NCBI RefSeq assembly: GCF_011806455.1 | Contig: NZ_JAATOT010000005.1 | Span: forward strand, 1-64,000 | DNA: 64,000 nt | Direction: 5' to 3' | From: Celeribacter sp. HF31 | GTDB taxonomy: Bacteria > Pseudomonadota > Alphaproteobacteria > Rhodobacterales > Rhodobacteraceae | Shown here: positions 1 through 14,007 of the stretch, piece after piece | How the letters are laid out: each line of letters opens with the position of its first letter | How positions within the stretch are numbered: position 1 is the first letter of the stretch | Notes under the pieces: generated by a model | The model's database searches: none | The model's input: only the letters and a program-made list of their open reading frames with translations | Told to the model about the DNA's origin: nothing | Made by a program: the position numbers and the translations under genes

Positions 1-127
1 CTGAAACTGTGATCGCCAAAAGAGTGCAGGATGGGCCCGTGACTCGGAGCAAGGGGTGGATTCCGGACCTTCGCTGCAAATGCGAAAACTGGCACGTCGA
101 CTGCCTATGCGTTTAGCCGAACCACCT
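1..127. other. Spacer downstream of hamB, possible dispersed-repeat fragment
   Basis: No gene is supported here. A stretch near 70-96 (ccttcgctgcaaatgcgaa) resembles a stretch near 12784-12802 (cattcgctgcaaacgcgaa), so this may be the edge of a copy of the intergenic repeat described at 3280-3470 and 12400-12830. No terminator hairpin for hamB is obvious. Confidence 0.35.
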
Positions 128-2209
128 TCACAAGGCTTGCTGCAACCACTCACACTCAAATTCTGATAGCGCTGCTTTCGGGTTGTGAATGGCTTCGTAC
201 AAACGGTTCCTCAAGGTCGTCTTGGTGTCACCGTCAACGTAGAACGCCTGCGAAATCTGAATTGGTACCCCTTCCTCGTCCAACTCCTTGAGGATTTCCG
301 GCTGAAACCAGCTGCCGATGCTGCCAAGAAACAGACTGTAGTCGGCTTGTGGCGAGGATTGGCGGACAAATAGCTCTACCAATGCAAAGTTCTGCGGCAA
401 ACCATACTCGCAAGCCCGCAAAAATTTGAAGATATTGTCTCGGTTTTCCGGTTGGCCCTTGTAGCTCTGATCTTGGTCCAGAAGGAAACTTTTTAGACTT
501 GTTGCCTTTCGAAGTCTGTCGATAAGTGTAGCAAGTTGTCTGGTATTGAACGCTCCAAAAGAGCCGACCTTCTGTTGAGAACAGAATACATCACAGACTT
601 CGAGAATCTCGGGCCATCTTGGCCAGTTTGCCCAAATCAATCTGTCGCTCTCTTCAAGGGAGCGGATTACTTGCTCTTTTATAGCTATGGCTGTTTCCAA
701 CCCGATTGAAGACGCCAGTTTAAGTTCGTCGCCCTCAAGACCTAACCTATCCCGGTAGTAACGAAACCGGTCATCTGACCGCTTTGATCTATCCAGTTTG
801 TCGATATGTACGATGTACTCGTCAGGTAGCTCGTCATCCTCTGAAAACAGTGTTGGGCTGACTTCCAGTTCTGTGTGTTCAGGGATATCATTGAAGACCA
901 TAACTTGGCCTACGTGATGTTGTCCGAGCCGCCCAGCGCGCCCCTTGATATTTGAGTAGGTGAAGAAGTCATATGAGTCCCGGTTAATCTTTTTATCATA
1001 GATCATGACGGTCTTTGCAGCCGTGTTGACGCCCTCAATGAGCGTTGAAGTACAAAGCAGTATGGGCAGTTTACCTTGATTGAAGAGGCGAACCATTTGT
1101 GCGGCAATTGCTCGGGGAATGCGGCCATGATGGACGCCAAACCCATAGTAGACTGCCAAAGACAGAAAGTTGTTTTGCCCAATATTGTTTTTCAACCAAA
1201 CAGCGAAGTCGCTTGTGTCTTCTGCCACGGCCATCTTTGCAGAAAGCTCGATTGCGAGTTTGTTGGCCCGGCCCGGTGACGAAATGAAGACAAGCGCAGG
1301 CCAGTTCCTATCCTCGCCAATTTCTTCAATCAGACGTTCGCGTTTGTCCGATACCCCTTGAAGGTCCAAGGTCTCTACTGCGACGGTGGAAAACCGAGTC
1401 CTCAGAAACTCAAAGTTCCACCGGGAATCTGGCGCAACTGATATTTTGTCGATATTGGGGCCAAGAAAAAAGAACTGCTTAGACTGCTTGAGCAAACGGT
1501 AAACCGCAGCGTTGAGTGTGATGCTGCGCTCGTCACGCCTGTCGGGATCAAGTTTGTAAAACTCGTCAACAACAGTGAGGTCCAAATCTCCCAAATCTTC
1601 GCGGTATATTAGTCGTTCTTGGGTCCCTAAGAAAATGGTCGGTTCGTCCGTCGATGTTTCACTCTGATGCATCACAAGCTTGAATTTTTCCGAAAAGCGT
1701 TCCCGAAAGCGCCTTCTGAATTCATCGAGTAACGCAATCGTCGGAAGTACAACCGCCACACGACGATAACGTTCCGTCGAGAGTAGGGCGTCGATCAGTA
1801 GGCTTTTTCCAAAACTGGTTGGGGCGCTCAAGATTAGATTTCGCCCCGCAAGGAGCGCATCCAGAGCTTTGACCTGTTCACGGTGAAACGTTACCCCGCC
1901 CAATTCAGGTGCAGTTACAGCCTCAGCGACAAGCGCGTCTGTCTCGTCCGCAAACTCAGTTTCGATATAGTTCCACAGGCCCGTGGACCGGGCCAGAGAG
2001 CTAACCAGTGGCCGATAGCTTAGGAGTTCTTCGTGGTGCCTGTCCAAAAGGTCAGCAAGTCTTGGGACAACCTCAAGCAAGCTTGGATCATCGGCGTCGG
2101 TTGACTGAATGGCGAACGACGCTGCTTGCAATACTCGAAAGGTTTCGCGCTTCAAATCGGAACCGGCTAGCGCATTCAGATCATTCCAGTTGATATCCAG
2201 AACGGGCAT
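128..2209 (-). CDS. hamB: Hachiman anti-phage helicase HamB
   Basis: A 693-residue superfamily 2 helicase-like ATPase, the predicted sensor and motor partner of the HamA nuclease in the Hachiman anti-phage system. Visible motifs: Walker A APTSFGKS at residues 129-136, motif Ia PTIALLDE near 156, a Walker B of the unusual form DEFY at 215-218, a motif III-like FFLGPN near 247, and a motif VI block SNIKGRAGRLG near 420. The start ATG lies 10 bases after the hamA stop and its ribosome binding site AAGGTG overlaps that stop, so the two are translationally linked. HamB proteins are often somewhat longer, so this is a compact member. Assignment rests on helicase motifs plus the HamA neighbour; a generic DEAD/DEAH call from the sequence alone would also be fair. 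Confidence 0.85.
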   Translation of the reverse strand: MPVLDINWNDLNALAGSDLKRETFRVLQAASFAIQSTDADDPSLLEVVPRLADLLDRHHEELLSYRPLVSSLARSTGLWNYIETEFADETDALVAEAVTAPELGGVTFHREQVKALDALLAGRNLILSAPTSFGKSLLIDALLSTERYRRVAVVLPTIALLDEFRRRFRERFSEKFKLVMHQSETSTDEPTIFLGTQERLIYREDLGDLDLTVVDEFYKLDPDRRDERSITLNAAVYRLLKQSKQFFFLGPNIDKISVAPDSRWNFEFLRTRFSTVAVETLDLQGVSDKRERLIEEIGEDRNWPALVFISSPGRANKLAIELSAKMAVAEDTSDFAVWLKNNIGQNNFLSLAVYYGFGVHHGRIPRAIAAQMVRLFNQGKLPILLCTSTLIEGVNTAAKTVMIYDKKINRDSYDFFTYSNIKGRAGRLGQHHVGQVMVFNDIPEHTELEVSPTLFSEDDELPDEYIVHIDKLDRSKRSDDRFRYYRDRLGLEGDELKLASSIGLETAIAIKEQVIRSLEESDRLIWANWPRWPEILEVCDVFCSQQKVGSFGAFNTRQLATLIDRLRKATSLKSFLLDQDQSYKGQPENRDNIFKFLRACEYGLPQNFALVELFVRQSSPQADYSLFLGSIGSWFQPEILKELDEEGVPIQISQAFYVDGDTKTTLRNRLYEAIHNPKAALSEFECEWLQQAL

Positions 2210-2219
2210 TTCTTACACC

Positions 2220-3074
2220 TTAATCAATTTGAAGCCCTTTGAGGCGGTCATCGAAGGCTTTGTTGAGCGCATCTTTGTCGGCCAATGGGACGTAAATGAG
2301 TTTGAGTCTTATTTTTTCAGCCAGCCCTGACGCCTTCAGTTTATCCCACAAGGCGTACATTTCGTCAGTCACCTCGGCGCTGTAGCCATCGTTTGCCGAT
2401 ACGTGGCTTGAAGTCGCGTCGCTATTTGCAGCAATCAAAACGGGGAAAACTGCACTCCCAATTAGTTCGTCTAGAGAAGCTTCGGCAGACAGAAGTTTCT
2501 TGATTTTCGCGCTGTGCGGAATGTCATTGGATACCTGTGGTCCAAGCAACAACTTTTCATTCTTGAGGAAACCCGCCGTGATGTGGCCTTTGATGGATGC
2601 GATTGCATCCTTGATAGCGTCGTTCCGGTTTTTGAAAAATTTCGCTTCACCCAGCCAAAGCTCTATACTGTCACCGTTGACGTACCGCACATGAACCAAG
2701 TCAAATGCCTTTACCGGATCGTTTGATGCGCTTAGGTAGTTCACCCTAGCAGCGACAGGTATGGTATTGAAATAGGTCCGGCAAACAGCGTGAGCAGCAA
2801 TCTCGCCTACCTCGCCACGCCGCTCATATTTTCCACTAGTATAAACCCTGGAAGCTGCCTGCTTTAGGCGAACAAATGTGTTGGTATGGTTCGTGTCGCG
2901 AAGTTCGTCAGATTTTAAAGCGTAGTCGATAATCCATTCAATCAGATTGTCAGCGAGACCAGAGCAACGCCATTCGGATAGTTCGAAGCCAGCGCAATAG
3001 CTCTCCCTGCTTTCATTAGCTTCGGTAAGTCGAGCTAGAATGCAATTGGGGGCAATTTCGTAAGGGTTTGACAT
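2220..3074 (-). CDS. hamA: Hachiman anti-phage nuclease HamA (DUF1837)
   Basis: A 284-residue DUF1837 protein, the nuclease effector of Hachiman. The pattern RRGEVGEIAAH (Glu88/Glu91), FDLVHV (Asp125) and LGEAKFF (Glu143, Lys145) is a PD-(D/E)xK-type active site. In characterised Hachiman complexes HamA is held inactive on HamB and released to degrade DNA when HamB senses damaged or phage-modified DNA; that mechanism is taken from family knowledge, not visible here. The gene is first in a two-gene unit with hamB. Base composition is visibly lower in GC than the flanking core genes, consistent with horizontal acquisition. All expected acidic and Lys residues are present, so activity is plausible. 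Confidence 0.88.
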   Translation of the reverse strand: MSNPYEIAPNCILARLTEANESRESYCAGFELSEWRCSGLADNLIEWIIDYALKSDELRDTNHTNTFVRLKQAASRVYTSGKYERRGEVGEIAAHAVCRTYFNTIPVAARVNYLSASNDPVKAFDLVHVRYVNGDSIELWLGEAKFFKNRNDAIKDAIASIKGHITAGFLKNEKLLLGPQVSNDIPHSAKIKKLLSAEASLDELIGSAVFPVLIAANSDATSSHVSANDGYSAEVTDEMYALWDKLKASGLAEKIRLKLIYVPLADKDALNKAFDDRLKGLQID

Positions 3075-3128
3075 TCAACACGCTGCTCTTGGTCTTATAA
3101 TATAATTAGACTTTGCCATAAGACCTTC
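3075..3128 (-). promoter_or_regulatory. AT-rich promoter region of hamAB
   Basis: Just upstream of the hamA ATG the minus strand carries an AT-rich stretch containing TATATTATA (about 3096-3104), a plausible -10 element in an otherwise GC-rich genome. No convincing -35 hexamer is seen. It is the only AT-rich stretch before hamA, so it is the best promoter candidate. Confidence 0.35.
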
Positions 3129-3274
3129 GACCCGGCAACTCGCAAGGGTTGCGCGCCCTGCTGTGTTGCACCCCGTTTCAATGATTTTGATGGCTCAGAT
3201 CAGACAGCTCAACAAAACGACGTCCGTCCATCTCGCAGCGATCGCCTCTGCATTTATCGTTCTAGGAGGAAATA

Positions 3275-3475
3275 GCAGCGTCCCGAATGTTGCGATGCGG
3301 CATTCGAGCATACGTTGAATGTCTGGTTTGGGCCGTCAGCGACCCTGCGCGAGGGGCGACCAGGCGCTTGGCTCTGCGGCACAGCAAAGGTCGGGAACGA
3401 GCCCAAAGTGTCGGATGCTGCGGAGCGCACGAACGGCGGCTCTTGCGCGATGATGTCTACCACAGCAAAGTTGCT
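3275..3475. repeat. Dispersed Rhodobacterales-type intergenic repeat, copy A
   Basis: Non-coding spacer of about 200 bases between hamA and the LysE gene containing the phrases gaatgtctggtttgggccgtcagcgacc and aaaggtcgggaacgagccc. Related phrases recur in the spacers at 4145-4300, 12400-12830 and 28085-28340, always intergenic and with no ORF conserved among them. This is judged by eye; no alignment was computed. Short ORFs crossing it differ in frame and are not supported. Confidence 0.5.
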
Positions 3476-3507
3476 ATGCAGTCTCCTCAAACGCACAGGA
3501 TTTGGCC

Positions 3508-4119
3508 ATGACAATTGAGCAGCTTCTCATCTTCCTTCCGGCCGCGCTGCTTCTGGGGGCATCGCCAGGAGCTAACAATCTGCTGGCCTTCACTTCGGCA
3601 ACGAAAGCCGGATGGCTTCGAACTGCCAAAGGCATCTTCGGTCGGCTGGCGGCATGGGCAGTGCTTGTCTTCTTGGTCTCTTTGGGTCTCGACGTATTAC
3701 TCCGTACGTCCGAGGTTGCCTTCATCGCTCTGAAGTGGATCGGCGTTTCGTATTTACTCTACCTCGCATGGCAATTCTGGACTGCGGATGTGTCCACGGA
3801 GATCGAAGTTCCAGAGGTATCGACACTGATGCGTCGGGAGTTTTTGACGCTGATGGGCAACCCCAAGGCCTATCTCTTGCTGACCGCCTTCCTTCCCCAA
3901 TTCGTGAACGACGGTTCTGCCCTAATGCCGCAGCTCTTCGCGCTTGGTGCGCTTTACCTGCTGGTCGAAGGCGTAGCTGCGCTTTTGTGGGTTTCGGCAG
4001 GAACTCTCGTCGGAGCGCATGCCCTCACTCCTCTTCGACGCAAGATCATCAACCGCGCCTCGGCCGGATTGATGGGGACTGCTGCTCTCCTGCTCGCGCG
4101 AACCGAAAAGGCAGCATAG
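3508..4119 (+). CDS. LysE/RhtB-family amino-acid exporter
   Basis: A 203-residue inner-membrane protein of the LysE/RhtB superfamily, which exports amino acids or related small molecules by proton antiport. It shows the family N-terminus, a hydrophobic helix ending in GASPGANNL (around residue 20), then five further hydrophobic segments and the conserved NPKAYLLLTAFLPQFV region in the middle. The ATG at 3508 is preferred over an in-frame TTG at 3502 because AGGA at 3497-3500 sits seven bases before it. Substrate cannot be read from the sequence. It stands alone between the Hachiman genes and a recombinase, flanked by repeats, so it may be cargo of the same accessory region. Confidence 0.85.
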   Translation: MTIEQLLIFLPAALLLGASPGANNLLAFTSATKAGWLRTAKGIFGRLAAWAVLVFLVSLGLDVLLRTSEVAFIALKWIGVSYLLYLAWQFWTADVSTEIEVPEVSTLMRREFLTLMGNPKAYLLLTAFLPQFVNDGSALMPQLFALGALYLLVEGVAALLWVSAGTLVGAHALTPLRRKIINRASAGLMGTAALLLARTEKAA

Positions 4120-4139
4120 CGTCGACAAGCGGATGCTCA

Positions 4140-4300
4140 CATCGTTCGAGTGGACGACAGCTTCGTCCCGCACTGCCGACTTTCAACCACGGATAATGCT
4201 GCACGATGCAACCGATGTCCGGTTCGGGGAAGCTGCACCGTAGCGACAGGCGTGCTGGCCAATGGCAGCTGTGGGCCGGGACCAGTCATCCGCTGGACCT
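4140..4300. repeat. Dispersed intergenic repeat, copy B
   Basis: Spacer containing cgtcccgcactgccgac, gatgctgcacgatgcaacc and tgtccggttcggggaagc in that order. The spacer near 12480-12560 contains a parallel series (gtcccgcactgcggac, gatgctgcgcggtgcc, gtccggtatggggaagcc) with the same spacing, so these are two copies of one element. No coding potential is supported. Confidence 0.55.
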
Positions 4301-4315
4301 GGCGTGAAGGTCAGT

Positions 4316-4978
4316 TCAGGGCCGTCCGTGAAGACGGCCCATGCTCCTAAATTTCGATAGCTTCGGCGATCGCCAACGCACTTCAAGCTCGACGCCGAGG
4401 TACCTGACAGTGCTGTCCATCTTGGTGTGACCCAAAAGAAGCTGGACTGCCCTGAGGTTGCCAGTCTTCTTGTAAATCTGCGTCACCTTCGTGCGCCGCA
4501 TCGAGTGCGTGCCATAGGCGCTGGCCTCCAGACCGATGGATGTCACCCAGTCACGCACAATTCGCGCGTACTGGCGGGTCGAGATGTGAAGCCTTTCGTG
4601 AAAGCGCCCCGGCCAGAGGTATTCGGATCCAATCATTAGCGGCTCCCGCATCCACCGAGCCAACGATGCTCGAGTGCCTTCAGAAATCTCGAAACGCACA
4701 GGTTTCTGGGTCTTGCTTTGCAGAACTGACGCGCGTTCTTTGATTTGGCCTGACGCCATGATATCGACCACCTTCATCTTCACCAAGTCGCAGCCGCGTA
4801 ACTTGCTGTCGATGGCAAGATTGAAGAGGGCCAGATCACGATGGTTTTCGGCTAGCTCCAGCCGCACTCTGATCGCCCAGACATGCTTTGGCTTAAGCGG
4901 TCGTTTCTGGCCGACGATCCGGCCTTTGTTCCAGGCTGGGCGCAGCGCGCGGATGGCGGGTAAGTTTGGTGTTTCCAT
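4316..4978 (-). CDS. Short tyrosine-type recombinase/integrase
   Basis: A 220-residue tyrosine recombinase with a full catalytic set: Arg61 (SKLRGCDL), Lys near 89, HSMRR with His158/Arg161, LLGH with His184, and the nucleophile Tyr193. The start at 4978 is favoured over upstream in-frame codons by a strong GGAGGA seven bases before the ATG; the upstream 18 residues look like read-through. It lacks the N-terminal SAM-like core-binding domain of classical phage integrases, having only about 35 residues ahead of the catalytic domain. It lies next to the Hachiman/LysE segment and could have mobilised it, but no flanking att duplication was found. The function, site-specific DNA cleavage and joining, follows from the family. 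Confidence 0.85.
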   Translation of the reverse strand: METPNLPAIRALRPAWNKGRIVGQKRPLKPKHVWAIRVRLELAENHRDLALFNLAIDSKLRGCDLVKMKVVDIMASGQIKERASVLQSKTQKPVRFEISEGTRASLARWMREPLMIGSEYLWPGRFHERLHISTRQYARIVRDWVTSIGLEASAYGTHSMRRTKVTQIYKKTGNLRAVQLLLGHTKMDSTVRYLGVELEVRWRSPKLSKFRSMGRLHGRP

Positions 4979-5275
4979 TACGGATCCTCCGATCCGCCGC
5001 GCCCTCCCACATCGACAACCCGACGTTGACAAGACATCATATCACATAATGCTGCGATGCATCCGAGGTCCGCAAGGAGCCCATCCTGTGAATTTGATTT
5101 CTCGCTGCGTGCGCTCGCAGCGCTACCATTGCGGCAGGCACACAGATATTCGCGCTGCCAGGCGGCGAGAAAACCAGCCATTCACGCAAGGCTAGGTAAG
5201 ACTTAATTTATGAAACCGCTCAGCTTGGTCTGTTGCGAGGTCTCAAACCTTGTTCAACTTAGTCGAGGATGTCGA

Positions 5276-5614
5276 TTAGTAGGCAGCGGTCACGATTATC
5301 TCGACCTTCAGTTCCGAGCGGGCAAGCTTTGCTTCGCCGCAGGCGCGCGCGGGGGCGTGGCCCTCAGGAACCCACGAGTCCCAGACGGCGTTCATCTCGG
5401 CGAAATCTGCCATATCGGCGAGCCAGATAACCACCTGCAACATCTTCGCGCGCGATGACCCGGCCTTTTCCAGAAGGGCGTCAACACGCGATAAACAGTC
5501 GCGGGCTTGCTCTGCGACGCTGGCCCCATCCCCGACCTGACCGCATAGATACGCGACCCCGTTGTGCTTGACGATCTTGCTCATTCGCGCACTCGTCTCG
5601 ATCCGTTCAATCAT
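5276..5614 (-). CDS. RidA/YjgF-family enamine/imine deaminase
   Basis: A 112-residue Rid-family protein. RidA proteins hydrolyse reactive enamines and imines made by amino-acid oxidases and PLP enzymes, releasing ammonia and a keto acid. Family features seen: the N-terminal VAYLCGQVG strand, the central helix with [24 protein letters not shown], and the C-terminal [11 protein letters not shown] strand. The Arg of the classic IPxTxxxRxxV segment appears as [21 protein letters not shown], slightly divergent from housekeeping RidA, so it is more likely one of the specialised Rid subfamilies. It is the last gene of the operon, nine bases after the FAD/iron-sulfur dehydrogenase subunit, consistent with clearing the imine that dehydrogenase makes. 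Confidence 0.88.
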
Positions 5615-5623
5615 AAAGGCCTC

Positions 5624-7015
5624 CTATTCAGCCGCGTCTTGTGTAGTTTCGTCCATAGCCGCGAGTTCGCTCAGAGTCACCGGTTTGAGAGGGGGACGGA
5701 TACGGTAGTAGCCTGTCTCATCCGCAGATTGTCCGTTGGCATCGGCCAGCAGCGCCGTCACCGTCAGCCCGCAATAGCGGCCCTGACAGGGGCCCATGCC
5801 CGCACGACCGAAGGCTTTGGTCTGGTTCGGGCCAAGGCACCCGAGTTTTGCATAGCTGCGGATGTCACCGGCGGTCACTTCTTCACAGCGACAAATCACA
5901 GTGCTGTCTGCTGGGGTCAAAGCCGCATCAAAGGGGGGATAGGCCGCATCCAGAAACGGGCGGACGGCCAATTCCCCGGCCAGAGCGCGACGCAGTGGAG
6001 CGGCCTTGCGATCGCGGTCTTGTGTAGAGAGGCGATTGGTCTCTGCGGCGATCTTCAGGGCTGCCAACTGGCCCGCATATTCGGCAGCCTTTGCGCCGCC
6101 AATCCCCGCCCCATCGCCCGCGATAAACACCCCGGCGGCGTCGCTTTCTCCCCATGCGTCAAGCACGGGTGCAAAGGCCGCCTGAGGCGCGTCCCAGATG
6201 TGAGAAACACCAAGCGATCGGGCCGCCTGCGTATTGGGCACAACGCCGTGATGCAGAAAGACCGTTTCGCACGGAATCCGCTGCTTGCGGCCATTGTGGG
6301 TGAAGGTCACGGCCTCGGCCTTGCCTTCACCTTCAACGGCGATCTGGGTCGCGCCCGTGTAACGGGGCACCTTGGCGCGCTTGATTTCGGCGAGCATCTT
6401 CAAGCCTTTCGCCATGTAGGGCCAGCCCCGCAGTGCGCCACCCACATGCCGCAAAGCGCGGATCATATCGCCCAGGGTCTGGGTCTCAATCATCGCGGCA
6501 GGGGGCGTGCCCGCGCGCACCATCTGGGCCGCGATCAGGTAAAGCAGAGGACCCGCGCCCACCAGCACGGACCCTCGCGCCGCGACACCGGATTGTTTCA
6601 GCAATATCTGCCCCGCCCCGGCAGTCATCACGCCCGGCAGGGTCCAGCCGGGTATCGGCATGGGGCGCTCCAATGCGCCAGTGGCCAGCAGAACGCGATC
6701 CGCCTCGACTTGCGCGCCACGCCCTTCGCGCGTGTAGGAAATGCGGAACGCGTCCTCAATGGCCCAGACAACCGCACTGGTGATGTGATCAACGCCACTA
6801 CGCCGGAGTTCCTCGGTCAGGCGTCTGCCATCGGTGTAATCCGCGCCAAGTATGGTCCCGCGCGCCGGTGACGCCCGATCTACATCGCGGTAAATCTGCC
6901 CGCCCGCGCGAGGTTGTTCATCCAGCACTGTAACACTCAGGCCCAGCTCGGCGGCCAGAGCGGCGGCGGCCATGCCAGCGGGGCCTGCGCCGATGATGGC
7001 GAGATCACGTTTCAT
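5624..7015 (-). CDS. FAD/[2Fe-2S] oxidoreductase, HcnB/opine-oxidase subunit type
   Basis: A roughly 463-residue pyridine-nucleotide-disulfide-type flavoprotein. The N-terminus carries the FAD fold IIGAGPAGMAAAALAAELG and a second nucleotide-binding segment; the C-terminus carries a BFD-like [2Fe-2S] motif (CRCEEVT, then CLGPNQTKAFGRAGMGPCQGRYCG), the arrangement of HcnB, OoxA/NoxA and D-hydroxyproline dehydrogenase subunits. It would pass electrons from the partner FAD subunit to the small ferredoxin-like subunit and on to the respiratory chain. ATG at 7015 is chosen because the run GGGGG lies nine bases upstream; an ATG at 7021 is also possible. It overlaps the end of the upstream [2Fe-2S] gene, so the subunits are translationally coupled. 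Confidence 0.85.
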   Translation of the reverse strand: MKRDLAIIGAGPAGMAAAALAAELGLSVTVLDEQPRAGGQIYRDVDRASPARGTILGADYTDGRRLTEELRRSGVDHITSAVVWAIEDAFRISYTREGRGAQVEADRVLLATGALERPMPIPGWTLPGVMTAGAGQILLKQSGVAARGSVLVGAGPLLYLIAAQMVRAGTPPAAMIETQTLGDMIRALRHVGGALRGWPYMAKGLKMLAEIKRAKVPRYTGATQIAVEGEGKAEAVTFTHNGRKQRIPCETVFLHHGVVPNTQAARSLGVSHIWDAPQAAFAPVLDAWGESDAAGVFIAGDGAGIGGAKAAEYAGQLAALKIAAETNRLSTQDRDRKAAPLRRALAGELAVRPFLDAAYPPFDAALTPADSTVICRCEEVTAGDIRSYAKLGCLGPNQTKAFGRAGMGPCQGRYCGLTVTALLADANGQSADETGYYRIRPPLKPVTLSELAAMDETTQDAAE

Positions 7016-7313
7016 TAGCATGTGCCCCCATTTCCTGAGGTCGCGTGATGGCCATACCTTCGGTCACCTCCAGCATACAGGCTTGGCGGGTCACGCCATC
7101 GATCTCGATCAGGCAATCAAAACAGGCCCCCATCATGCAGAACGGCGCGCGCGGCGCGCCCGAGACGGGCGTGTGTCGAAACACTTTGACCCCGGCCGCC
7201 AGCAAGGCGGCGGCCAGGTTTGCCCCCTCAGGCAGGCTGAGCGCTGTGCCGTCCCACGTCACGTCGACGCGGGGGGCGCTTTCAAGCTCAAGAAACGGTG
7301 AAGCGGGTTTCAC
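7005..7313 (-). CDS. (2Fe-2S)-binding small subunit, HcnA type
   Basis: A 102-residue plant-ferredoxin-fold protein with the cluster ligands C-x4-C-x2-C followed by a distant Cys (FCMMGACFDC then RQACM). It corresponds to HcnA/OoxX-type subunits of membrane-associated amino-acid and opine dehydrogenases. A longer reading from ATG 7340 exists, but GTG at 7313 has a GGAGG six bases upstream and gives the normal family length, so it is preferred. The gene overlaps the 3' end of the DAO-family subunit by 26 bases and the start of the next flavoprotein, a tight three-subunit arrangement. Confidence 0.84.
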   Translation of the reverse strand: MKPASPFLELESAPRVDVTWDGTALSLPEGANLAAALLAAGVKVFRHTPVSGAPRAPFCMMGACFDCLIEIDGVTRQACMLEVTEGMAITRPQEMGAHANET

Positions 7314-8388
7314 TGAACACCTCCAGATCTGGTGCTGCATCGGTGCCTTCTAACCAGTCGGGCAGAAGGCGGGCATGGGCGGCGGCAAGGGTGATTCCGC
7401 TGTGACAGGTGACAAGATAAGCGCCCGGCATGTCGGGGCTTTCCTGATAGATCGGCAACCCGTCGGGAGACAGAATGCGCAAGGCCCCCCAGCTGCGCAC
7501 CAGCTGCGCGCGCGCCAGGGCCGGATAGGCGGCGATGGCTTTGGCAGCAAGGCCTGACAGGCCCGGTTGCGTGACGCGATCATCAAGGCCGACTTCTTCG
7601 TTGGTGGCCCCGATCTGGATGCCCCCTTCGTCCACCTGCCGCGCAATCAGCGAGGGGCGGTTGATGAGTTTGGGCAGTTTCTCAGTGATCAGGACCTGAC
7701 CGCGCTGCGGGCGCACGGGCGCTTTGAAACCCATCTTCGGGCCAAGCTGGGCGGCCCCGAGACCAGCGGACAAGACGACCTTGCCCGATGTGACGGTTGT
7801 GCCGTCTGCGCAGGTGATCCGAAAGCCATCCGGCTTTGTCACCTCGGTCACTGTTTTTCCGGTCAACACGCGCCCGCCCATCCGCCGTACATCTGCGGCC
7901 AGCGCTACCAGCAGCTTTAGCGGGTTTGCGTGGCCATCCTGATAATGCAGGATCGCGCCGACAACTTTCGGGCCGATATGCGGCTCTTCCTTGCGCAGCG
8001 CGTTGTGGCCGAGCACCTCGTAAGGATAGTCGCCGCCGAGCTGTGCTTTTAAAATCTCATATTTGGCAACGGTCTCCTCCAGCGTCTCTTCTGAGAAATG
8101 GAAGTCGTAGCCGCCGTTTTGTTCCAGTGGAATGGACTTGCCGGTGTTGCCTGACACCTCTTGTGCAAAATCGGCCCAGATCGCAGCCGATTGTTGCGAC
8201 CATTGAGCATAGCGCGGTTGGTTCATCCCCTTGGACTGCACCCAGACCAGCCCAAAGTTACCTCGGCTGGCGCGGAATGAGCCGTCGTCGCCGTCCAGAA
8301 CCGTCACAGTTCGTCCGCGCCGCAGCAACCCCCAGGCAACAGAGAGGCCGACAACTCCGCCTCCGATGATGGCATAATCGGTTTCCAT
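7288..8388 (-). CDS. FAD-dependent oxidoreductase (DAO family), HcnC-type catalytic subunit
   Basis: A 366-residue D-amino-acid-oxidase/glycine-oxidase family flavoenzyme, the likely substrate-oxidising subunit of the dehydrogenase. METDYAIIGGGVVGLSVAWGLLRRG is a textbook dinucleotide-binding N-terminus (quoted in part: IIGGGVVGLSVA), and the C-terminus has RSWGALRILSPDGLPIYQ and CHSGITLAAAHARLL typical of DAO proteins. The ATG at 8388 is used because the 61 residues encoded upstream are the intergenic spacer read through. The substrate would be a secondary or D-amine, opine or imino acid; it cannot be read from the sequence. The gene follows the TRAP binding protein in the same operon. Confidence 0.88.
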   Translation of the reverse strand: METDYAIIGGGVVGLSVAWGLLRRGRTVTVLDGDDGSFRASRGNFGLVWVQSKGMNQPRYAQWSQQSAAIWADFAQEVSGNTGKSIPLEQNGGYDFHFSEETLEETVAKYEILKAQLGGDYPYEVLGHNALRKEEPHIGPKVVGAILHYQDGHANPLKLLVALAADVRRMGGRVLTGKTVTEVTKPDGFRITCADGTTVTSGKVVLSAGLGAAQLGPKMGFKAPVRPQRGQVLITEKLPKLINRPSLIARQVDEGGIQIGATNEEVGLDDRVTQPGLSGLAAKAIAAYPALARAQLVRSWGALRILSPDGLPIYQESPDMPGAYLVTCHSGITLAAAHARLLPDWLEGTDAAPDLEVFSETRFTVS

Positions 8389-8452
8389 GTGATCCGTTCC
8401 GATGGTGGGAAGAGGTGTCAGGGCAGCAGGTGCCGCCCTGACAAAATTTGGC

Positions 8453-9451
8453 TTAGTTGCCTGCGGCGGCAACCTTATCCAGGATTGCTTGGCCCCATTC
8501 GACGCCAACGTCTTCCAGTACTTGCGGCCAGACTTCGGCGCGGGCTTTGGCAGCCATGCCGGCCAGGTCATCCGCGCTCAGCTCGGCAACGGTCGCCCCC
8601 AGCTCGTCCACCAGACGCTGTTCGTTCTTGGCCTGATCTGCTTCGGCCACGTCCCAGCGGGTGGCTTCAAACGCGGCGGCTTGTTCTTTCAGCGCGGCCT
8701 GATCTTCCTCCGACAGCTCAGCAAGGCTGCCGTTGGAAATGATCATGTACCAGACCTCAAAGTGGGTGTTGGCGGGGATGTAGGTCTTGGTCACATCGCG
8801 GAACGAGGCATAGTAGCCTTCGGCCCCCGACCCGATCACGCCATCCACAACACCGGTTTGAACGGCTGTGAAGGCTTCGGAAAACGGGATGGGCGCGGGG
8901 ATATAGCCCAATGCCTCGCCGGTCAGCTGGAAGCTTTTGATGCCAGGCACGCGCACTTTGATACCGTTTGGTTCGGTCGAGCCGGGATTGGCGTTCTCAA
9001 CGTTCAGCGAGATACCACCGAAATAGACCGGATAGGCGGCCAGCATGGTGATGTCTTGTTCTGCATAAAGCCCGGCCATCACGTCGCGCACAACACCGCC
9101 CGGGCCATAAACCGCGCGGGCCTGATCCCAGTTGCCAGCCAGATAGGGGAACGAGCTGATTTGCATACGACGGTCAGCGGCCGCAGCTGCGGGCTGGGTT
9201 GCCATGTCGATTGCGCCCACGCTGATGCGTTCCTGAACGGTGGTGTAATCCCCAAGGGCGGATGCCGGAAACAGGTTGATGTTTACATCACCGCCCGTGG
9301 CCTCGGACACCGCTGCGGAAAAGGTGCGCAGTTCCACATCAATCGTGGCGTCTTGCGGGCGCACGTGGCTCATCTTTAGGTCTTGGGCTTGCGCGTAGCT
9401 GCCAAGCGCCATGAGGGCGGCAGTCGCAGTGGTTAGGAATGCATGTTTCAT
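8453..9451 (-). CDS. dctP: TRAP transporter solute-binding protein (DctP family)
   Basis: A 332-residue periplasmic binding protein with a clear signal peptide (MKHAFLTTATAALMALGSYAQAQ, cut after AQAQ). The mature part has the DctP-family layout, with SHVRPQDATIDVELRTFS at the start and IKVRVPGIKSFQL around residues 165-180, which contains the Arg that clamps a carboxylate in this family. It delivers substrate to the DctQM permease encoded just upstream. Gene order dctQ-dctM-dctP followed by dehydrogenase subunits implies the ligand is the compound oxidised by the enzyme. Confidence 0.9.
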   Translation of the reverse strand: MKHAFLTTATAALMALGSYAQAQDLKMSHVRPQDATIDVELRTFSAAVSEATGGDVNINLFPASALGDYTTVQERISVGAIDMATQPAAAAADRRMQISSFPYLAGNWDQARAVYGPGGVVRDVMAGLYAEQDITMLAAYPVYFGGISLNVENANPGSTEPNGIKVRVPGIKSFQLTGEALGYIPAPIPFSEAFTAVQTGVVDGVIGSGAEGYYASFRDVTKTYIPANTHFEVWYMIISNGSLAELSEEDQAALKEQAAAFEATRWDVAEADQAKNEQRLVDELGATVAELSADDLAGMAAKARAEVWPQVLEDVGVEWGQAILDKVAAAGN

Positions 9452-9494
9452 TTTAAGTCTCCTTGTTGGGGTGCATTTTTTGTTTGGGTTCGTT

Positions 9495-10805
9495 TCAGGG
9501 AGCTATGTCGTATCCAAAGAAGCGCGGCAGGAAGAGCGACAAATCGGGCCAGAGCGACGTCAGGAAAACCACGGGCACATAGCCAAACAAGATGAGCTTC
9601 ATGGCCGGCGGGATGACCTTGGTCACCTTCACGTTGCCGATGCGCGCGCCCAGATAAAGGATCGAGGCATAGGGCGGGGTCACACCGCCCATGGCGGTAT
9701 TGACGCCCATGATCGCGGCAAACTGCACCGGGCTTACGCCGATTGCATTCATCAGGGGCAGCAGCAGCGGTGCAATCAGAATGATCGCAGTCACATCGTT
9801 GACGACCATGCCGACGAGAAACAGCATGATGTTGATCAAGATCAGCAGCACGACCTTGTTTTCAGTGATCGAAAAGATGCCCTGAACCAGTTGCTGCGGG
9901 ATGCTTTCATAGACGAACATCTGGGAGAGGATCATAGAAAAGAGGATCATCATCATGATCGCGCCCACCGCGGTGGCGGCTTCTTTGCCTGCGAGCAAGA
10001 AGTTTTCCCAACGCAGGCCTTTGTAAATCAGAAAGCCCACGGGCACCGCATAGATCACGGCAACGGCGGCGGCCTCGGTTGGCGTCATGACGCCACCATA
10101 AATGCCGCCAAGAATGATGACAGGCATCAAAAGCGCCGGGAAGGCATGAAAACCGCGCTTCGCGACTTCGCTCGACAATTCCGAGAAGGACGGTTTTTCG
10201 TCCAAAATCAGGTTGAACTTGCGCGACATGAAAAGGTTGATCACGGAAAACGATGTCATGATCAGCAGGCCGGGGCCGAGCGTGGCAAGAAAGCAGGCCA
10301 AGATCGAGGTATCTGTCACCCAACCATAAACGATCATCGTCACTGAGGGTGGGATCAACAGACCGAGGATCGAGGAGTTGGCAATCAGGGCGGTGGCGTA
10401 TTCCCGGGGATAGCCGCGCTTTTCCATCTCTGGGATCAAGAGCGGACCAATGGCGGCAATACCTGTCAGACCAGAGCCCGAGATCGCGCCAATCACCGCA
10501 CAGGACACTGCCGCAACCACCCCCAAGCCTCCGCGCACATGACCAATAAAGGCATTCACGAAGCGCAGAAGTGACGCGGCAATCCCACTTTCCGACATCA
10601 CGGTTCCAGCAAGAACAAACAGCGGGATCGCGAGAAGCACCGGGTTGCCAAGCTGTTGCACACCCCACAGCATCATCCCCTTCATGGTCACACCGCCCAT
10701 GAAATACATGACCATCAAGGCAGACCCGAAACAGTAGGGTAGCGGCACACCAAGGGTCAGCGTGATGACCAGCAAGGCAATAGCAAGAAGAGCAATCTCA
10801 ATCAT
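9495..10805 (-). CDS. dctM: TRAP transporter large permease (DctM)
   Basis: A 436-residue polytopic membrane protein with about a dozen hydrophobic helices and typical DctM sequences such as GLTGIAAIGPLLIPEMEKRGY, LIPPSVTMIVYG and GVTPPYASILYLG. It forms the sodium-driven transport channel of the TRAP system. Its start ATG overlaps the stop of dctQ (ATGA at 10802-10805), showing translational coupling, and 43 bases separate it from dctP. Confidence 0.93.
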   Translation of the reverse strand: MIEIALLAIALLVITLTLGVPLPYCFGSALMVMYFMGGVTMKGMMLWGVQQLGNPVLLAIPLFVLAGTVMSESGIAASLLRFVNAFIGHVRGGLGVVAAVSCAVIGAISGSGLTGIAAIGPLLIPEMEKRGYPREYATALIANSSILGLLIPPSVTMIVYGWVTDTSILACFLATLGPGLLIMTSFSVINLFMSRKFNLILDEKPSFSELSSEVAKRGFHAFPALLMPVIILGGIYGGVMTPTEAAAVAVIYAVPVGFLIYKGLRWENFLLAGKEAATAVGAIMMMILFSMILSQMFVYESIPQQLVQGIFSITENKVVLLILINIMLFLVGMVVNDVTAIILIAPLLLPLMNAIGVSPVQFAAIMGVNTAMGGVTPPYASILYLGARIGNVKVTKVIPPAMKLILFGYVPVVFLTSLWPDLSLFLPRFFGYDIAP

Positions 10806-11272
10806 GCTGGTTCTCCGGATTGAAGGCTGCGGATATGGCGCACCAGATGTGACGCTGTGTAGATCATCATCAGTGCCAGACCGACGACCAACGCTACGTC
10901 TGAATAGAATGTCGGGATGTAAAGCGTCGGACTTTCACGCCAGACGCGCCAAGCATATTGGGTGTAGTCCCACGCCCAGGACAGCAGCCAAAGGCCAACG
11001 GTTAGGCTGATGAGCTCTCCGATGATGGCGAGGATCGTATGCCCACGATCCGTCTTGATGAAAATCTCGAGGACATTGGCTCGGATGTGAGTATTCTCGC
11101 GCGATGCGTTCACTGATCCGAGAATGTAGAGCCAGACGGTCGGATAGGCCATGGTCTCTTCAAGCCCCATGACAGGGACCTGCAATACATAGCGTGTAAT
11201 GACCTGAACGAACTGACCCAAAGCCACTGATACGATCAGCGCCGTGAGTAGATATTTGGCAAATCTATCCAT
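10802..11272 (-). CDS. dctQ: TRAP transporter small permease (DctQ)
   Basis: A 156-residue four-helix membrane protein of the DctQ family, the scaffold partner of DctM. The family signature around the second helix, AYPTVWLYILGSVNASRENTHI, is present near residues 43-65. The ATG at 11272 is preferred over an in-frame TTG further upstream because AGGGG lies just before it and the protein then begins MDRFAKYL. It is the first gene of the seven-gene operon reaching ridA. Confidence 0.9.
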   Translation of the reverse strand: MDRFAKYLLTALIVSVALGQFVQVITRYVLQVPVMGLEETMAYPTVWLYILGSVNASRENTHIRANVLEIFIKTDRGHTILAIIGELISLTVGLWLLSWAWDYTQYAWRVWRESPTLYIPTFYSDVALVVGLALMMIYTASHLVRHIRSLQSGEPA

Positions 11273-11385
11273 CTGTCCCCTATCCAGCAAGCGTTAGTGC
11301 CTAGGCCATCTGCCCATTTCACTGGACATTCGGCATAATTTCAATTTTATAATATCTCTAACATCATTAACTGAATTTATACCCT
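11273..11385. promoter_or_regulatory. Divergent promoter region, TRAP operon and LysR gene
   Basis: This short spacer is strikingly AT-rich for the genome (ttcaattttataatatctc). It contains ATAATTTCAATTTTAT (11335-11350), an inverted ATAA/TTAT pair that could be the LysR-type operator, and several possible -10 elements. Placement between divergent LysR and target operon is the usual arrangement; exact elements are inferred. Confidence 0.45.
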
Positions 11386-12315
11386 ATGCACCTGTCTCTC
11401 CGACAACTCTCAACCTTTCGCGAAGTCATGCGGTCCGGCTCCATCAGTCAGGCCGCGCGGGCGGTCGGCCGTACCCAACCCGCCGTATCAACAATGGTTC
11501 ATACCCTCGAAGATCAGCTGGGCTTCGCCCTGTTCTTAAGATCGCACGGCAAACTGACGCCCACACCCGAAGCCTATTTCTTTCTCGAGGAATGCGATGA
11601 CATCCTTGGCCGTGTTGAACGCACAGAACGCACTTTGGAACGGATCAGCTCATTGCAATCCGGCAAGCTCAAAATCGCCTGCCACCCTGCCGCATCGAGC
11701 GTTTTTCTCCCGCGCCTCTTAACCGAGTTCATGAAAGACCGGAACGATCTTGATGTGTCCCTTATCATGCGATCTTCAGACGTAATTGAAGACCTAATCG
11801 CATCGCAACAGTACGATCTTGGATTTGCCGAGACGCCACAGCCGCGCGCGTCGATTCGGCAAACAGACTACGATCTGGAATGCGTTTGCGTGTTGCCAAA
11901 AGACGATCCTTTGGCGCGGGCAGAGATTATTACGCCGGGTGATCTGGATGGCCGCCCGATGGCCGTTCTTTTCGATGAGCATGGAACAGCCGTTCAAACC
12001 GAGGCCGCTTTCCGCTCTGCCGGATGCCACTTCAACAAGCGGATTGAACTTCGTACCTTTCTTCCTGGACTGCAGTTTGTGGCGGCGGGCGTTTGTGTGA
12101 TGGTCTGCGATATGATCACGGCCTATAGCCATCTGGTACAGGCCCCGGAGAATGAAAGGCTGTCGATCCGGCGCTTCAGCCCGCACATATCGAACAGCAT
12201 TTCAATCCTGACGCCTGGCTACGCGACGCAATCCATGGCAGGCCAGGCCTTTATAGGCGAACTTCACACCGCGGTAGAGCAGATGCAGGTCGATATCCGC
12301 GAGGCATTAAGGTAG
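11386..12315 (+). CDS. LysR-family regulator of the TRAP/dehydrogenase operon
   Basis: A 309-residue LysR-type regulator. The N-terminal winged helix-turn-helix is standard (LRQLSTFREVMRSGSISQAARAVGRTQPAVS, residues about 5-35; cited for position), followed by a linker helix and a periplasmic-binding-like effector domain. It is divergent from dctQ with a 113-base spacer, so it most likely controls the TRAP importer and three-subunit dehydrogenase, using the imported compound as coinducer. The effector cannot be read from the sequence. Confidence 0.88.
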   Translation: MHLSLRQLSTFREVMRSGSISQAARAVGRTQPAVSTMVHTLEDQLGFALFLRSHGKLTPTPEAYFFLEECDDILGRVERTERTLERISSLQSGKLKIACHPAASSVFLPRLLTEFMKDRNDLDVSLIMRSSDVIEDLIASQQYDLGFAETPQPRASIRQTDYDLECVCVLPKDDPLARAEIITPGDLDGRPMAVLFDEHGTAVQTEAAFRSAGCHFNKRIELRTFLPGLQFVAAGVCVMVCDMITAYSHLVQAPENERLSIRRFSPHISNSISILTPGYATQSMAGQAFIGELHTAVEQMQVDIREALR

Positions 12316-12905
12316 TCGCGACTGAGCTGCACAGTTATGCAACTCAAAACGCTATCTGATGTGATGACATCGTGCCAATGTTCAATGTCTGCATTGGCGA
12401 CATGAACTACATCGCAGCGACAGGAGTGCTGCAAGCGCATAGCGATGCTGCGTCAACGAAGTGCGAAAAACGATCAGCTGGTTTGTCCCGCACTGCGGAC
12501 CTCGGGGCCCTGGACGATGCTGCGCGGTGCCATGAAGGTCCGGTATGGGGAAGCCGCTCTGCGGCAACGGTGAGCCCGACCAAGGTCGGCTCAGGGCCGG
12601 TCGCTTCGGTCGAGCAGGCTGCCGGTGAGCCATGCCTCGCTGCGCCCTAGCCGGACGTCAGCGAAGCGCAGGAAACAGACCCTGCAAAATCGCGAACTAT
12701 GGTCGTTCTTAAGGACGTGAACCGGCCCATACCGGACCCTCAGCGCCCTGCTAGGATGCTGCAATCGCAGCCCGCATTGCTGCCATTCGCTGCAAACGCG
12801 AAGTCAGGAAGAGCCCGAACTCACACTGTGCGGGACGAAGCCGACTTTGCGCCGCGCTGCGTGAGCGTCCGCTCCCGCCGGATCGGAACATTTACGACTG
12901 CCCGC
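12316..12905. repeat. Gene-free spacer built from dispersed intergenic repeat, copies C
   Basis: About 590 bases without a supported gene. It carries the repeat series gtcccgcactgcggac, gatgctgcgcggtgcc, gtccggtatggggaagcc (about 12483-12558), then cattcgctgcaaacgcgaagtcaggaagagcc (about 12784) and gtgcgggacgaagccgac. Parallel pieces occur at 4145-4300, 3280-3470 and 28085-28340, so this spacer probably holds one or two degenerate copies. A 92-residue reading at 12372-12650 crosses the repeat and is not believed. Confidence 0.5.
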
Positions 12906-13766
12906 TCAGACCCTGACCAAGATCAATCCGCTCGCGATCATGGCCGCTGCGCCCCATCTCCACGGTCCACCGCGCTCGCCGAGGAGGAGCACGCCGATCA
13001 GCATGGCCCAGAGCACGCTCGTTTCGCGCAGTGCGGCGACGAGGCCGACCGGCGCTCGCGTGAAGGCCCAGACCGCAACCCAGTAGGAGCCGAGGGACAG
13101 GACACCGGCGACGAGCCCCGATCGCCAGGCCGGTCGCAACTTGCCGAAGGCCGCTCGGCCCCGCGCGAGCACTGCGAAGGCGCTCATCGCAATGCCATCC
13201 ACCACGAACATCCACATCACAAAGCCCGAGGCGGTACCCGAGAGGCGCGCGCCAATAGTGTCGGCCAAAGTATAGGACGCCGTGAAGCCCGTCGTACCGA
13301 GCGCCCAGAGGATCGCGGTGCGGTTTGCTCCGATACCGCCGCCCCGCAGCGACATCGAGACCACGCCGAGCCCGATCAGGGCAATCCCGGTGGCACCGAC
13401 GGTTCCGATCTCCTCACCGAGCGCGAAGACCCCGACCACGGCGACGATCAACGGGGCCGTGCCGCGTGCGATCGGATAGACATAGGAGAGATCGCCATGG
13501 GTGTAGGCCTGCACAAGGAAGAGCTTGTAGCCGGTGTGCAGAAGACCGGAGCCAATGACCCAGGGCCAAGCCGCCGCGGCTGGCAGGGGGAAGACCGGGA
13601 TCAGGGACAGCGCCAGCCCCATCGACACCAGCGCGATCAGCAGCATGGAGGAGAAACGGTCGAGCCCGACCTTCACGATCGCATTCCAGCCCGCATGCAT
13701 CAGCGCGGCCGCGAGAACGGCGAGGAATGTCAGCGTGTCGAGACCGCCGGCGGTCGCGGGATTCAT
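12906..13766 (-). CDS. EamA/DMT-family transporter
   Basis: A 286-residue drug/metabolite transporter with ten predicted hydrophobic helices in two EamA repeats (LTFLAVLAAALMHAGWNAI at the start; SLGSYWVAVWAFTRAPVGLVAALRETSVLWAMLIGVLLLGE in the second half, cited for position). Members export metabolites, amino acids or toxic compounds. The ATG at 13766 is preferred because it lies one base after the stop of the upstream DUF1127 gene and the sequence becomes family-like from there; a longer reading runs through that gene in another frame. The GC content of this and the next genes is visibly higher than average. Confidence 0.87.
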   Translation of the reverse strand: MNPATAGGLDTLTFLAVLAAALMHAGWNAIVKVGLDRFSSMLLIALVSMGLALSLIPVFPLPAAAAWPWVIGSGLLHTGYKLFLVQAYTHGDLSYVYPIARGTAPLIVAVVGVFALGEEIGTVGATGIALIGLGVVSMSLRGGGIGANRTAILWALGTTGFTASYTLADTIGARLSGTASGFVMWMFVVDGIAMSAFAVLARGRAAFGKLRPAWRSGLVAGVLSLGSYWVAVWAFTRAPVGLVAALRETSVLWAMLIGVLLLGERGGPWRWGAAAMIASGLILVRV

Positions 13767-13767
13767 C

Positions 13768-14007
13768 TCAGTCGTCCCCACCTTGCCAGAACCAAAGGAC
13801 ACATTCGGCGCGACGCTCCGCTTCGCCGATCCCGATGTCACGCAACGCCTCGGCATCGATACGCGAGAGCTGCGCGCGGGTGTGGGCACGGCGATGCCAG
13901 AGTGCGAGGAGCGCCAGGGGTCGGGTGAGGCGAAAGGGCCCGAACTGCGCCGGAGGACGCGGCCTGCCAACGGTTGAGGTGAGCGGAGGGATAGGTGCAT
14001 GTGACAT
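13768..14007 (-). CDS. Small DUF1127-domain protein
   Basis: A 79-residue protein whose C-terminal half, LWHRRAHTRAQLSRIDAEALRDIGIGEAE, fits the DUF1127 family (Arg-rich, xLxxLDxxxLRDIG). Small DUF1127 proteins in alphaproteobacteria have been linked to RNA maturation and phosphate or stress responses; their C-terminal domain binds RNA-associated partners. The stop TGA is separated by one base from the ATG of the EamA gene, so the two are translationally coupled. The N-terminal 30 residues are Pro-rich and not recognised, and no good ribosome binding site is seen, so the exact start is uncertain. Confidence 0.7.
   Translation of the reverse strand: MSHAPIPPLTSTVGRPRPPAQFGPFRLTRPLALLALWHRRAHTRAQLSRIDAEALRDIGIGEAERRAECVLWFWQGGDD

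Follow-up and report, generated by a model that had tools for sequence, protein, structure and literature searches.

The Hachiman locus

The window, by which we mean the whole 64,000-nucleotide stretch of DNA analysed here, carries near its start a Hachiman gene pair, hamA and hamB. The pair lies between a contig edge and two neighbouring genes:

1-77: contig-end overlap, identical to the ends of contigs C1 (a 6145-base rRNA operon) and C11; outside the hamA-hamB operon
128-2209, minus strand: hamB, 693 aa, ATG start; compact Ski2-like SF2 helicase
2210-2219, minus strand: intergenic gap of 10 nt from hamA stop to hamB start, holding most of the ribosome-binding-like site of hamB
2220-3074, minus strand: hamA, 284 aa, ATG start, stand-alone; PD-(D/E)XK-type effector nuclease (DUF1837/HamA)
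3075-3331, minus strand: upstream (promoter) region shared with relatives, the match ending at 3331 (L004), 3251 (L005), 3310 (L006) or 3336 (L007)
3135-3152, minus strand: inverted repeat GCAAC-N8-GTTGC, about 75 nt upstream of hamA
3502-4119: LysE gene (PF01810); no PADLOC match
4316-5032: tyrosine recombinase (integrase; PF00589), short, 238 aa from a TTG start; no PADLOC match

Both proteins match their families far beyond chance and over nearly their full length. The PADLOC subtype is mixed: HamA is matched by 21 HamA profiles, best by HamA1 (E 1.9e-111, residues 9-282), and HamB is matched equally well by HamB2 (8.4e-190) and HamB1 (9.8e-190), among the best 25 listed of 33 matching families. 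Pfam finds PF08878 in HamA at 139.4 bits (cut-off 25), beginning at residue 8 of 284 and the sole Pfam domain, and DEAD (PF00270) and Helicase_C (PF00271) in HamB, both above their cut-offs. With NCBIfam, HamA has no match, and HamB draws just distant helicase models, none of which reaches its cut-off. The original prediction had read these two ORFs as a Hachiman pair 10 bases apart and had proposed an HMM search in which HamA might draw no hit. Run with PADLOC, that search returned both HamA and HamB, Pfam likewise returned HamA, both ORFs lie where they were placed, and positions 2210-2219 separate the first stop from the second start. In every intact relative that we located, hamA sits directly beside hamB.

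The two genes are likely translationally coupled, judging from the short gap and from the placement of AAGGTG, the ribosome-binding-like site of hamB, which on our reading of the sequence shares bases with the hamA stop codon and finishes 6 nt short of the hamB ATG; hamA's own site is weak. Further upstream, the inverted repeat is a possible operator for some regulator. Its core, CAAC-N8-GTTG, lies 72-78 nt ahead of hamA in six of the 14 loci compared (the window, L004, L005, L006, L007 and L009) and was not found in the remaining ones (L008, L010, L083, L073, L074, L066, L069 and L084). The repeat arm reads G..C in the window versus A..T in L009, and the core has two matches within the 64-kb window.

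Catalytic and helicase motifs are intact. HamA keeps D125 and G142-E143-A144-K145, which do not vary across 8 near relatives, the window among them. HamB keeps a Walker A motif (SAPTSFGKS, K135), DEFYKL at 215-220 and NIKGRAGR at 420-427; SAPTSFGKS, DEFYKL and GRAGR are conserved among HamB relatives, and nine diverse compact HamBs all carry DEFYKL unchanged. Neither frame is interrupted or truncated, the start sites agree with those of relatives, and dN/dS of 0.06-0.10 against near relatives in seven comparisons indicates purifying selection (dS was saturated in two further HamB comparisons). AlphaFold models built from shallow alignments of 8 and 7 rows are poor, with pLDDT 53.6 for HamA and 41.6 for HamB. 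Within the latter, N-terminal helices at 8-98 form a block of pLDDT 62-88, the remainder of the model being poor, and are a candidate HamA-binding region.

Surroundings and horizontal transfer

The operon lies 50 bases beyond the 77-base overlap, and both genes point toward an rRNA operon, that of contig C1, which ends in tRNA-Met. The overlap, shared by the start of the window's contig (C9) with the ends of C1 and C11, is the sole exact repeat; its length suggests the assembler k-mer. Since C11 shares it as well, at least two rRNA copies are likely. The dispersed repeats that the original prediction placed around the system did not materialize: no repeat of at least 24 bases involving the region was reported in the window, the search otherwise gave only short chance-like pairs, and the only other match to region 3075-5620 in its own genome covers 90 bp of the integrase at 73% and lies on contig C8.

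Several observations support horizontal gain of the operon well, as had been predicted. hamA and hamB are 88.3% and 92.2% identical at the DNA level to those of a Roseovarius contig (L004), where gyrB reaches only 74%; the corresponding figures for Paracoccus caeni (L005) are 84.5% and 87.1%, against 76% for a core gene that we take to be lon-like. The system is also sporadic, with a HamA match at E <= 1e-10 in 4 of 394 family genomes, its own counted. Identity exceeding that of core genes and this scattered presence together argue for arrival from outside, with related bacteria as the source. The differing base composition noted earlier is confirmed, the two genes having 48.2% and 49.8% GC versus 60.7% for window positions 5276-64000.

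Only about 3.2 kb is common to the different hosts. DNA shared with other genera covers window positions 64-3331 (L004), 64-3251 (L005) and 112-3310 (L006), and the flanks differ: two IS transposases in L004, and an upstream tRNA-Asn with a downstream resolvase and integrase in L005. L008 has a tRNA-Ser and an integrase directly upstream, and L009 carries a gene that looks similar by appearance. A bare 3.2-kb unit beside different landmarks in different genera is a small example of a mobile defence operon, one that moves with no recombinase of its own inside the shared stretch. The short Jannaschia contig L006 also encodes, at 330-1067, a HEPN_RiboL-PSP protein upstream of its Hachiman pair.

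The integrase and LysE exporter adjoin the operon as the original prediction described, but neither lies within the unit that moves, similarity stopping near 3251-3336. As candidate parts of the system both were rejected: no window match in L004-L010 covers either (query, window 1-14000). The recombinase, which is not linked to the Hachiman unit, has a 78% identical DNA match in the same-genus genome G260. G260, the sole same-genus genome compared, lacks HamA and, among the first 11300 bases of the window, matches from 4319 onward only; the 19.9-kb stretch around its integrase match holds no rRNA operon and so offers no clean empty site.

HamA is matched by 10 of 72,556 plasmid records (best 54.7%, Paracoccus aminovorans) and HamB by 5 of 50,697 phage records (best 34%). 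One scan of IMG/VR with six peptide patterns, whose reach is close relatives, returned no relative of the window HamA. Our literature search found no dedicated paper on Hachiman in Rhodobacteraceae and one bay-metagenome paper that mentions Hachiman.

Family placement and proposed function

The nearest solved relative of the pair is AbpAB (8zue), deposited under the title 'the Hachiman defense system from Escherichia coli'. HamA has one match at E <= 1 among solved structures, 8zue_A (E 7.4e-5), which is also the sole match at E <= 0.001 in a fold search with the HamA model, whose pLDDT is only 53.6. For HamB the best match is 8zue_B (AbpB, 729 aa; E 4.4e-79), and similarity to the ECOR31 HamB (8vx9, 1174 aa) is confined to residues 329-430. 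The compact size of the 693-residue HamB, which the original prediction had singled out, is real but has precedents: it fits PADLOC profiles of 709 and 721 positions, and AbpB is itself compact, so this is an established kind of HamB.

Trees place the pair more closely. In a 41-HamB tree, a compact clade of 26 rows (support 100/100) comprises 16 stand-alone and 10 fused systems, with AbpB inside; its intact members measure 677-729 aa; of the two incomplete rows, L007 runs off a contig end and L088 is split by an IS. In a 30-row HamB tree rooted on four longer HamBs, Cap4-fused rows form a clade (96/98), two trypsin-fused rows group together (100/100) and the window belongs to a stand-alone branch of 11 rows, moderately supported (89/75). 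The HamA-domain tree recovers both fused clades and the 11-row window branch (96/95), though several long branches in the HamA and HamB trees leave deep joins unsure. By sequence, then, the window system is part of a stand-alone branch with an apparently live HamA, within the compact clade to which AbpAB and trypsin-fused Hachiman also belong.

The pair very probably makes up a complete anti-phage operon of the Hachiman (HamAB) type, in the compact-HamB branch, which would act by the mechanism described for ECOR31. Direct support comes from gene order, full-length family matches, intact motifs, purifying selection and transfer between genera; complex formation, trigger, DNA clearance and the defence phenotype we infer from relatives. 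In ECOR31 Hachiman (PMC12278908), HamB keeps HamA in check until it senses free 3' ends and then releases HamA to clear all DNA, and the system responds to DNA damage without phage. For AbpAB the trigger is given in PMC10732053 as DNA damage or phage SSB.

By analogy, HamB would keep HamA complexed and inactive as long as the duplex DNA that it surveys is intact. Free 3' single-stranded DNA ends, or damage of a like kind arising during phage replication, would set off ATP hydrolysis by HamB, which would free or activate the HamA nuclease; active HamA would then degrade phage and host DNA and abort the infection. This scheme carries the ECOR31 mechanism over from a long HamB to a distant, compact one by family membership. 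We know of no phage of this host.

Three other readings deserve weighing. Filing the pair as AbpAB with an AbpB-type helicase, rather than as Hachiman, would suit the nearest solved helicase and the compact clade (100/100) that holds AbpB, and the authors of the mSphere paper (PMC10732053) speculated that AbpAB is not a direct equivalent of Hachiman. The absence of a Cap4 domain largely refutes this filing: AbpA is Cap4 fused to a HamA that lacks active-site residues, whereas the window HamA has no Cap4 and keeps D-GEAK, and the Cap4-fused rows form a clade of their own with the window outside. The refuting case named by the original prediction, a helicase from another two-gene family, is half touched, in that AbpB is its nearest solved relative, but AbpAB has itself been proposed as a Hachiman variant (PMC12278908) and its structure is deposited as Hachiman. 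We consider the AbpAB filing very improbable.

The operon might also be a decaying passenger that no longer functions. It sits next to an rRNA operon at the very edge of a contig, and decay does occur in the group, as a Plesiomonas plasmid relative with an IS-broken hamB illustrates; yet open full-length frames, start sites as in relatives and the low dN/dS speak for maintained function, and decay, too, seems very unlikely. A role as a DNA-repair nuclease-helicase instead of a phage defence earns hardly any credence. HamB does resemble Hel308/Pol-theta helicases, and a reaction to DNA damage in the absence of phage, as reported for Hachiman (PMC12278908), would fit repair, but patchy presence (4/394), mobile neighbours in relatives and GC unlike the host are what one expects of an accessory defence and not of a housekeeping repair system.

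Possible effector swapping and comparison with known systems

Loss of the HamA active site goes with fusion. In an alignment of 35 HamA domains (the weak match L060 was dropped, and iterative search missed the HamAs of six further loci), the catalytic D and ExK are kept in all 25 stand-alone HamAs, the window included, and the catalytic E is absent from all 10 HamAs with an N-terminal fusion. Eight of these carry Cap4 and two trypsin, nine having been domain-scanned and L087 counted from its record's AbpA annotation. Instances of such loss are already known: the dead HamA of AbpA has been called enigmatic (PMC12278908), and active-site loss in protease-fused HamA has been described (PMC12799240).

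Tentatively, and with somewhat less than even confidence, we propose that the compact-HamB branch is a chassis for Hachiman effector swaps. The window would preserve the condition before any swap, with a live, stand-alone HamA still paired to an AbpB-type helicase; Cap4 and trypsin fusions would have arisen within the branch, and the HamA active site would have been lost afterwards. If true, this would explain the inactive HamA of AbpA, which PMC12278908 describes as enigmatic. The evidence, tree positions and a count of fusions, is suggestive only. Fused HamA occurs in 3 of 8 compact pairs versus 0 of 19 others (Fisher p 0.019, for a hypothesis formed post hoc), with four loci (L095-L098) classed as non-compact by HamB length (844-1140 aa) and not by tree, and with partial HamB frames in L052 and L056. 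These 27 pairs were drawn from 29 distinct genomes, G463 and G528 being dropped with no HamB located near a contig end. The other seven fused rows are a biased sample, six found by similarity to the window HamB and one being the known AbpAB. The HamB tree prefers two origins for the Cap4 and trypsin fusions, an AU test does not reject a single clade (p 0.174), and the HamA-domain tree weakly favours a single origin (52/0).

Two records carry fused relatives. A Plesiomonas shigelloides plasmid (L088, 3800-7309) encodes a trypsin-fused Hachiman whose hamB is broken by an ISVsa5-family IS4-like element. The unverified record of Klebsiella phage Kp4865-2 (L089, 275-4040) encodes, near one record end, an AbpAB-like Cap4-fused HamA with a compact HamB.

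Among known systems, the closest are the compact Hachiman loci of other Rhodobacterales (L004, Roseovarius sp.; L005, Paracoccus caeni; L006; L007), which share the same two genes, a 9-10-nt gap and the upstream region, with HamA 85-91% and HamB 92-96% identical (the contig-end-cut L007 HamB excluded from the latter figure). They differ in their flanks, which hold IS transposases, tRNA-Asn or other genes. ECOR31 Hachiman (8VX9) likewise pairs a stand-alone D-ExK HamA with a Ski2-like helicase; the ECOR31 helicase has a HamA-binding N-terminal helical region (PMC12278908). Its HamB chain, however, is 1174 aa long in the PDB, with DEGH as motif II (PMC12278908) versus DEFY in the window. The trypsin-fused Hachiman HamMAB, described in PMC12799240, has its HamB in the same compact clade (L071, L088). 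There HamA is inactive and fused to a trypsin-like protease, and in L088 an MBL-fold gene lies upstream; the window HamA has PF08878 only, with no trypsin-like domain, and its upstream neighbours are LysE and the integrase, not MBL.

AbpAB (E. coli K-12, 8ZUE) is a further comparison. Both systems have a compact DEFYKL helicase of the same clade, 729 aa in AbpAB, with a HamA-domain partner. AbpA, however, joins an N-terminal Cap4 nuclease to a HamA domain without catalytic residues, and the window HamA stands alone, intact, with no Cap4 (PF14130) found by Pfam. The window pair is a useful unfused comparison, being related to AbpAB and having a compact helicase but an apparently live HamA. It lets two questions be put: does the compact helicase keep a live HamA under its control, and did AbpA gain Cap4 before its HamA activity was lost? 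The system itself is already known, and the window adds one intact member to an established defence family.
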